Shown one piece after another: positions 27,849 through 29,438 of a stretch of DNA of 64,000 nt. The DNA is from an uncultured Gemmatimonadota bacterium (GTDB lineage: Bacteria > Gemmatimonadota > Gemmatimonadetes > Gemmatimonadales > Gemmatimonadaceae): NCBI GenBank assembly GCA_902826615.1, contig CADEFN010000004.1:310001-374000 (forward strand), read 5' to 3'. The notes under the pieces were generated by a model. The model ran no database searches and was not told the DNA's origin. It saw nothing but the letters and a program-made list of their open reading frames with translations. Numbering within the stretch: the first letter of the stretch is position 1; each line of letters begins with the position of its first letter. Both the position numbers and the translations under genes were made by a program.

Positions 27849-28508
27849 TTACCGTGACGACCCGAACCCGTGCGCCAGGCGCAGAAACTCGTCACGGGTC
27901 ATGGCGTCGTCCCGGAACGTGCCGAGCAGCGCCGACGTGATGGTCTTGGAGTTCTGCTTCTCCACCCCGCGCATCATCATGCACAGGTGATACGCCTCGA
28001 TGACCACACCCACACCACAGGGATTGAGGATATCCTGGATGGCCTGGGCAATCTCACCCGTGAGCCGCTCCTGCACCTGGAGCCGCCGCGCAAACATGTC
28101 CACAATGCGCGGGAGTTTGGAGAGCCCCACGATGCGTCCATTCGGGATGTAGGCGATATGCGCCTTGCCAAAGAAGGGCAGCATATGGTGCTCGCACATC
28201 GAGTAGAGCTCGATATCGCGCACCATCACCATCTGCCGGTAGTCTTCGGCAAAGATGCCCTCACCCACCACGTCCTCCACCCGCAGGTGATAACCCTGCG
28301 TGAGGAACTGCATGGCCCCCACCACGCGGTGCGGCGTGCGTTGCAGCCCTTCGCGTTCGGGGTCCTCCCCGAGGAGCGCGAGTTGTCGGCGGACAAGCCC
28401 TTCGTACTCCAGCTCGCTCGCGTCCGTGTGCGAGCCGTCCTCGCTATCGACCGTCTGCGGAATGAAAGGCGGGAGGGAATGCACGTGGGTGTCAGGTGTT
28501 GCCGTCAT
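27849..28508 (-). CDS. folE: GTP cyclohydrolase I
   Basis: 219 residues (TTG at 28517 would give 222). FolE converts GTP to 7,8-dihydroneopterin triphosphate, the first step of folate, tetrahydrobiopterin and queuosine precursors. The zinc ligands are visible in [20 protein letters not shown] (Cys and His) and [20 protein letters not shown] (second Cys). [20 protein letters not shown] completes the family core. The start overlaps the end of queD by 17 bases, indicating translational coupling. Together the two give the first two steps towards 7-carboxy-7-deazaguanine. QueE and QueC are not in the window. Confidence 0.95.
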
Positions 28509-28908
28509 AGTCAACAAAGTTGTGTTCGGTCTCCCACAGACGCAGCCGGGTGAGACGCGCGGGAGTGATCAGTGGCGCAATCACGCGCCAGATGGCGACC
28601 ACGAGGTTCTCGGACGTTGGATTGATGCCGCGCAGGAAGTCGACATCGAGGTTCAGGTTGCGATGGTCCAGCTTGTCGATCACTTCGCGAGTGACGATGT
28701 CCCGTACGTCCCCCAGATCGATCACGTAGCCGGTGCGCGGATCAACCTCACCAGTGACCGAGACATCGAGGAGGTAGTTGTGCCCGTGCCAGTTGGGGTT
28801 GTTACACTTCCCGTACAGGCGTGCGTTCTCGTCGTCGCTCAGGGCCGGATTGTGGATCCGGTGAGCCGCGTTGAATCGCAACCGGCGGGTGATGGTGACG
28901 ACGGGCAA
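28492..28908 (-). CDS. queD: 6-pyruvoyl-tetrahydropterin synthase/QueD family protein
   Basis: 138 residues. QueD turns dihydroneopterin triphosphate into 6-carboxy-5,6,7,8-tetrahydropterin for queuosine; eukaryote-like PTPS makes 6-pyruvoyl-tetrahydropterin. Zinc ligands are His in FNAAHRI and the pair HGHNY. The catalytic Cys is in [15 protein letters not shown]. The glutamate near the end ([11 protein letters not shown]) binds the pterin. The [11 protein letters not shown] form is shared by bacterial PTPS-like and QueD proteins, so which product is made cannot be settled from sequence alone. It is the first gene of the operon. The 318-base leader upstream is described separately. Confidence 0.9.
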
Positions 28909-29025
28909 GGTGTCGGCGGGAATTGGGTGGAGTCAGCAACACGAAAGATGGATGGTAACGCCCGCAATCGGCTCGCCCGCACCATCGTCCCAGATCAAGC
29001 CGCGGGCCGGGGTGGGGGTTCCACG

Positions 29026-29226
29026 AAAAACGAGCCCCACCTGGACGGGTGGGGCTCGCGTAAGTCGGAACGAAGAGGGTTTTTTGAAGCCCGGACGATA
29101 GGAGTAAGATCCGCAACCAGTCTTCCGCCTTCCCCGCGCTGGGGCATGACGTCAACCAATATGTTGGACCCCTTCGCTGAGCTTGTTGGCTCAAAAAATT
29201 GGTCTCTCCGTCCCTATCTTTCAGTC
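29026..29226 (-). ncRNA. Candidate structured leader or small RNA upstream of queD
   Basis: The gap 28909-29261 is the only gene-free stretch over 300 bases. A minus-strand RNA starting near 29226 from the promoter at 29233-29261 and ending at the terminator at 29031-29058 would be about 200 nt. Local helices include a GAGC/GCTC pair (29179-29192) and a CCCC/GGGG pair (29132-29144). No known preQ1, tetrahydrofolate, TPP, cobalamin or SAM core was recognised, and no tRNA fold. It may be an attenuator leader for queD-folE or a free-standing small RNA. The evidence is promoter, terminator and position only. Confidence 0.4.
29031..29058 (-). terminator. Intrinsic terminator hairpin in the queD leader
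   Basis: On the minus strand an 11-bp perfect GC-rich stem (arms 29058-29048 and 29041-29031) closes a 6-base loop and is followed at once by five T residues (29030-29026). That is a textbook Rho-independent terminator for minus-strand transcription. It lies about 120 bases upstream of queD and about 170 bases downstream of the minus promoter at 29233-29261. It therefore either ends a small RNA or acts as an attenuator of queD-folE. Confidence 0.7.
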
Positions 29227-29232
29227 GCCCCG

Positions 29233-29261
29233 AATGTACGGGGCCGCGACAAACCGGTCAA
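29233..29261 (-). promoter_or_regulatory. Sigma70-type promoter for the queD leader
   Basis: On the minus strand TTGACC (29261-29256) and TACATT (29238-29233) are separated by exactly 17 bases, matching 5 of 6 and 4 of 6 consensus positions. The -35 box ends immediately before the start codon of the divergent small membrane-protein gene. Expected start of transcription is near 29226. Confidence 0.5.
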
Positions 29262-29438
29262 ATGGATCTAGGAATCGTTGCAGCCATCGCCATGCTCGGC
29301 GTCTGGGCCTTCGCCACATTTACGACTGAGGCCCCCGGTTGGATACATGGTCTCCTCACGGCCGGCGTCTTTCTGCTGATCTATCGCATCGTGGTCAGGG
29401 GCAGCCCTCCACTCCCCAAGGACTCCAGCAAGAAGTGA
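29262..29438 (+). CDS. Small membrane protein, DUF5670 (Lmo0937)-like
   Basis: 58 residues from the ATG at 29262; the frame upstream to 29199 is not coding-like. Two hydrophobic helices (LGIVAAIAMLGVWAFATFT and IHGLLTAGVFLLIYRIVVRG) are joined by a short turn with GWIH. They are followed by a charged tail ending in SSKK. The two-helix pattern with a central G-x-I-H matches DUF5670/Lmo0937, a family of about 50-residue proteins of unknown role often linked with envelope stress. Its promoter region overlaps the oppositely directed queD leader. Confidence 0.6.
   Translation: MDLGIVAAIAMLGVWAFATFTTEAPGWIHGLLTAGVFLLIYRIVVRGSPPLPKDSSKK

Follow-up and report, generated by a model that had tools for sequence, protein, structure and literature searches.

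Many bacteria restrain transcription globally by means of 6S RNA, which holds back RNA polymerase. In Escherichia coli the gene order around the 6S gene ssrS is zapA-ssrS-fau, and an excerpt of PMC7641849 describes a wide zapA-6S arrangement in the Proteobacteria. The short product RNA (pRNA) that is copied from the E. coli 6S RNA starts at U44, as given in part of PMC8876501, and reads AUCGGCUCAGGGG when taken from the ssrS sequence; for B. subtilis 6S-1 an extract of PMC12005410 gives GUUCGGUCAAAACUA. A further RNA, Ms1 of the Actinobacteria, resembles 6S RNA in overall fold and is linked to RNA polymerase, in its case the core enzyme, according to the section of PMC9130861 that treats it.

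The DNA analyzed here is a stretch of 64,000 nucleotides from an uncultured Gemmatimonadota bacterium (the window), and our subject is the gap that separates a divergent 58-aa gene (29262-29438, plus strand) from a gene that had been read as queD (28908-28492), the gap being read on the minus strand. We are highly confident that this gap holds a stand-alone 6S RNA gene in a diverged form. The RNA thus belongs to a known kind, and it stays below the Rfam cut-off in the window's genome.

A sequence-only reading of the gap had pointed to a minus-strand promoter, TTGACC-17-TACATT, and to an 11-bp terminator with five T in front of queD, and both are present where it had placed them. The -35 box TTGACC (29256-29261, minus strand) was found in the sequence and by a promoter scan and is kept upstream of related RNAs, and the -10 box TACATT (29233-29238, minus strand), 17 nt from the -35 box, is supported by the sequence, the scan and conservation; transcription would start near 29226. 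The intrinsic terminator, seen in the sequence and by a scan, is a stem-loop at 29030-29059 (minus strand) followed by five T at 29030-29026, and its stem has 12 pairs when a final G-U is counted with the 11 Watson-Crick pairs. The distances hold as well: what had been given as about 170 nt from the promoter to the terminator is 174 nt from the -10 box to the start of the stem, and the approximately 120 nt to queD are 117 nt from the T-run to the TTG start (28908). Taken alone, the promoter is at chance level, with one in 6 kb against 0.7 expected from shuffles, and terminator-like sites number 7, where 3.7 are expected. It is because they are conserved among relatives that the two elements rise above chance: an upstream promoter that matches at 9 or more of the 12 positions accompanies 36 of 68 related RNAs (1.7 expected from shuffles), and a terminator-like hairpin with a T-run lies 3' of the RNA in 28 of 56 loci, compared with 4.3% of shuffles. 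The ATG of the 58-aa gene, whose protein has a weak match to DUF5670 (Pfam, 21.4 bits, under the 23.5 cut-off), abuts the -35 box, and within the same family this gene is the divergent neighbour at the majority of loci.

Of the 60 nearest genomes, the majority gave DNA matches to 29215-29067. Each of the 60 has some match at E<=1, the weak ones being chance, and in the solid matches the identity goes down to approximately 70% with the order unchanged. Two covariance models were built, R1 from the sequences of 31 relatives and the broader R2 from 33 phylum-wide sequences with ten family codes. R1 matches in 188 of 200 phylum genomes and R2 in 195, leaving five of the 200 without an R2 match; in the window's genome each model matches one place only, G000:C4:339067-339215, and the gene is thereby single-copy. 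Conservation of the leader therefore extends across the phylum, and a functional RNA is not refuted. The apical motif gave the same picture, since all 15 of the 15 named stretches that carry it are titled Gemmatimonadetes, Gemmatimonadaceae, Gemmatimonas or Roseisolibacter, the last of which we take to be a member of the Gemmatimonadota.

Covariation among relatives, which had been suggested as a check, was strong in two alignments. A1 is a plain MAFFT alignment of 31 cores, drawn from 30 loci of the DNA search and two others, without L026, which carries an insert, and with L032 and L034 dropped as duplicates. It shows 96.9% standard pairs against 93.0% in shuffles, and double changes in 15 of 33 pairs (2.0 in shuffles) and in 35 cells (3.4 in shuffles), all for a structure that was itself predicted from A1. 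In A2 double changes occur in 32 of 38 pairs and in 185 cells, compared with 54.9 in shuffles, and 94.0% of the cells are paired, which drops to 41-56% (maximum 56.3%) when the partner strand is slid; as A2 was fitted to model R1, these counts lean towards the R1 structure.

The predicted gene extends over approximately 201 nt on the minus strand (29026-29226), from the inferred start to the end of the terminator T-run, and both this length and the conserved promoter of its own fit 6S RNA (about 180-200 nt). Its conserved core is 149 nt (29067-29215, minus strand; row L001:1668-1816 of A1). RNAalifold on A1 gave a closing stem, a second stem in which UUUUUGAGCC pairs with GGCUUCAAAAA, then a bubble and, at the tip, a stem-loop. 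This is a long hairpin of the 6S type, with closing stem, central bubble and apical stem, as seen in the consensus fold and in the covariation. The closing stem P1 has its 5' strand at 29205-29214 (minus strand), which pairs with 29076-29067, and all 10 of its 10 pairs have changes on both sides in A2. The second stem P2, the putative pRNA template, has its 5' strand UUUUUGAGCC at 29188-29197 (minus strand) paired with 29091-29081, with one U bulged; 97.9% of the A2 cells in its 10 pairs are paired, and the models align the strand in register with E. coli CCCCUGAGCC. The apical stem-loop CGUC aug CCCC agcgc GGGG aa GGCG (29126-29151, minus strand; helices 6 and 7) is paired in 95-98% of cells. 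When the window RNA was folded as a single sequence the closing stem formed and P2 was absent, P2 being a feature of the consensus only. A local GAGC/GCUC hairpin that appeared in the single-sequence fold was rejected, as the sequence at this place is AAGTCC in most relatives.

A scan of the window with Rfam returned zero families at cut-off, and in a permissive scan the 6S model RF00013 gave a full-length match to 29223-29058 with 18.2 bits (E 0.14 for 451 bases; cut-off 46.4). Among the 60 relatives, RF00013 matches were obtained in 13 genomes, none above the cut-off and most of them at the conserved place, and 23 of the 200 phylum genomes had a match at E<=1, one of which was above the cut-off; the filters of this sweep were strict, and L118 escaped it although a direct scan puts that locus above the cut-off. 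Two orthologues pass the 46.4 bits by direct scan, L119 (56.6 bits) and L118 (51.4 bits), and R1 matches them at the same places with 66.4 and 64.9 bits, respectively. It is this coincidence that ties the window RNA to 6S. The RF00013 matches, compared by hand, fall on the R1 or R2 place in 22 of the 23 genomes; a weak match in G209 (L084) lies off the R1 place and was taken as chance.

The link also holds in the reverse direction. R1 and R2 were built without any E. coli sequence, and in a search space of 50 kb of E. coli DNA the best match of both models was ssrS over its full length, although these matches are weak, with 20.4 bits (E 0.0056) for R1 and 22.8 bits (E 0.0037) for R2. Two sequence elements are common to ssrS and these RNAs and take the same positions in both: UGAGCC(A/G)A, where the pRNA starts, and CAUGC...GAAG, which belongs to the apical loop. 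The likeness to RF00013 and ssrS thus comprises a length of approximately 200 nt, a closing stem, a second stem, a central bubble and an apical stem-loop, full-length matches both ways, and zapA upstream in some relatives. The differences are that the sequence in the window's genome is too diverged for the Rfam cut-off, and that the gene in the window's lineage precedes PTPS-folE instead of standing beside zapA. A free small RNA of approximately 200 nt had been offered as the alternative to a leader; the free RNA stands, and only the word new has to go, since by homology to Rfam 6S and ssrS it is 6S RNA.

By homology with 6S RNA elsewhere, a promoter of the sigma-70 type and the intrinsic terminator would produce an RNA of about 200 nt, which would fold into the long hairpin with closing stem, second stem, open central bubble and apical stem-loop. 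The hairpin would mimic an open promoter and, chiefly in cells that have ceased to grow, bind the polymerase that carries the housekeeping sigma factor. When nutrients return, the polymerase would begin within the central bubble and copy a short pRNA off the second stem, and this would refold the 6S RNA and free it.

The neighbourhood of the RNA was compared in 56 loci. The start of the PTPS gene, i.e. the gene read as queD, lies at most 400 bp downstream of the RNA in 33 of them, folE comes first downstream in three, and in eight PTPS or folE is found 1.3-1.45 kb from the RNA. Four loci have zapA directly upstream, seven have none of PTPS, folE and zapA beside the RNA, and one is cut off too early for a call. 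For two of the four zapA loci a Pfam match confirms ZapA, and RNase Y and YmdB are found downstream in one each. The window's genome has zapA on another contig, grouped with a pheT-like and an rny-like frame (these two were named by eye from their translations), and R2 gave no match in the zapA-rny gap there. Most likely, 6S left the zapA-rny slot for its present place in front of PTPS-folE; that it moved this way round was taken from the zapA-6S order being widespread in the Proteobacteria, as an excerpt of PMC7641849 has it. The window's lineage would then show clearly a 6S gene that has acquired new neighbours, and a related reading is that the move to a pterin operon independently echoes the folate-gene link of the Proteobacteria. 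In L101-L104, L106 and L110 the RNA is separated from PTPS or folE by a frame of opposite orientation, and in L101 this frame has a weak match to a Na/Ca exchanger.

The sequence-only reading had seen queD and folE as the genes that follow. This is correct for folE, the gene for GTP cyclohydrolase I (27849-28517, minus strand), which overlaps the end of the gene before it; that gene (28492-28908, minus strand) matches Pfam PTPS and is better read as PTPS than as queD from the NCBIfam and PDB scores. It reaches 67.3 bits with NCBIfam QueD, under the cut-off of 89.25, and in the PDB its closest match is 1b66 (129.5 bits), with the QueD-type 4ntm at 50.7 bits. We take 1b66 to be the rat 6-pyruvoyl-tetrahydropterin synthase and 4ntm the E. 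coli QueD-type enzyme. Being under the QueD cut-off and closest to 1b66, the protein makes a queuosine link doubtful; judged from its sequence it looks less like E. coli QueD than like the 6-pyruvoyl-tetrahydropterin synthase of the animal type, and the operon looks like one for pterin, not queuosine.

A 6S RNA in this position could have a second role, in which partial read-through of the terminator supplies PTPS and folE. Such a role would be compatible with the 6S reading, and it is favoured by the fact that 44 of 56 loci have the RNA linked to PTPS-folE, as well as by E. coli, where the folate gene fau follows ssrS and an excerpt of PMC7641849 reports a common ssrS-fau transcript. We nevertheless consider it rather unlikely, as in the window a strong terminator and 117 nt separate 6S from PTPS, the linkage is absent in 11 of the 56 loci, and in the eight loci with PTPS or folE 1.3-1.45 kb off, several have an oppositely oriented frame in between. 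If true, read-through would tie the supply of pterin or folate to 6S production.

The riboswitch or attenuator that had been proposed for queD and folE, with a pterin or deazapurine sensed by the leader and the terminator setting the read-through into PTPS and folE, fares far worse. The order of promoter, structured RNA and terminator is indeed that of a leader, and PTPS or folE does follow in the loci counted above. Against this, 11 of the 56 loci carry the RNA with neither queD nor folE in the stretch examined (e.g. L030 and L033), and the RNA of relatives passes the Rfam 6S cut-off. This distribution, together with the 6S homology, led us to reject the leader, which we regard as highly improbable. 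That no known riboswitch core could be seen by eye agrees with Rfam, which has none at cut-off in the window; SAM-VI, on the other strand with 19.2 bits against a cut-off of 57.5, is the only riboswitch among the weak matches, none of which belongs to a pterin or preQ1 family. The weak matches to SAM-VI and to the rnk leader lean on the terminator hairpin and were discarded.

It is scarcely credible that an unrelated structured RNA, or an Ms1-like binder of core polymerase, merely resembles 6S here, even if the window itself scores low with Rfam 6S and Ms1 has a 6S-like structure in a phylum from which 6S is reportedly absent (PMC9130861, in part), since there are direct links to Rfam 6S, above the cut-off, as well as an in-register link to E. 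coli ssrS, the pRNA template motif is conserved, four of 56 loci keep the zapA-6S order, and Ms1, which differs in binding core polymerase, has no match listed for the window stretch or for the two sets of 8 loci scanned with Rfam.

Returning to the 6S reading, the models align E. coli U44 with window base 29185, and from this alignment a 14-nt pRNA, 5'-GUUGGCUCAAAAAA, is predicted to be templated by the 6S RNA from 29185 onwards (29185-29198, plus strand). In a comparison of the pRNAs alone, GUUGGCUCAAAAAA resembles GUUCGGUCAAAACU of B. subtilis 6S-1 and shares its G start (PMC12005410, in part). The three bases before the template run fall into few classes: a motif search gave 69 distinct RNAs with AAC in 37, GAU in 26, GAC in five and AAU in one, and a narrower motif with 68 RNAs gave 36, 26, 5 and 1 in the same order, the counts covering the RNAs that fit the motif, with the others left out. 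From the sequence, the pRNA of the AAC type is predicted to start GUU, as in B. subtilis, and that of the GAU type AUC, as in E. coli, with predicted beginnings GUUGGCUC and AUCGGCUC, respectively.

On a quick tree of 46 loci, in which 10 of the 43 inner branches were drawn open, the third base of the triplet changes at least nine times, the first base nine times and the combination 10 times, and the first and third bases change together. An independent-pairs test of this coupled switch found approximately five of six pairs going the same way (median p 0.0625), which is not significant on its own. The pRNA start nucleotide of 6S may thus have switched repeatedly within one phylum, a reading that we find plausible but hold only tentatively. 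If true, release of the polymerase would be GTP-dependent in some species and ATP-dependent in others, and the phylum, in which predicted pRNA starts of the E. coli and the B. subtilis kind have replaced each other many times, would amount to an experiment set up by nature on the sensing of the energy state by 6S.

In the strict sweep RF00013 stayed under its cut-off in 199 of the 200 phylum genomes, at least one of which passes in a direct scan, and automatic annotation would consequently omit most of these 6S genes, a gap that R1 and R2 fill. Our search for literature on 6S RNA in Gemmatimonadetes, Gemmatimonas or Gemmatimonadota found none, with the survey of Wehner et al. 2014 outside that search. 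It is reportedly the main 6S survey and may list the phylum, for which reason a first report is not claimed.

Some single loci showed features of their own. Downstream of the RNA in L017 lies a long, separate self-complementary stretch (L017:1718-1969), which produces spurious microRNA matches on both strands, and the matches of this locus to microRNA and UTR families were set aside as belonging to it. Four of the 200 genomes (G071, G193, G050 and G198) have two R2 matches each, possibly a second 6S gene, and in G071 a tRNA-like sequence, read by eye, follows directly 3' of the RNA (L079:1639-1708).
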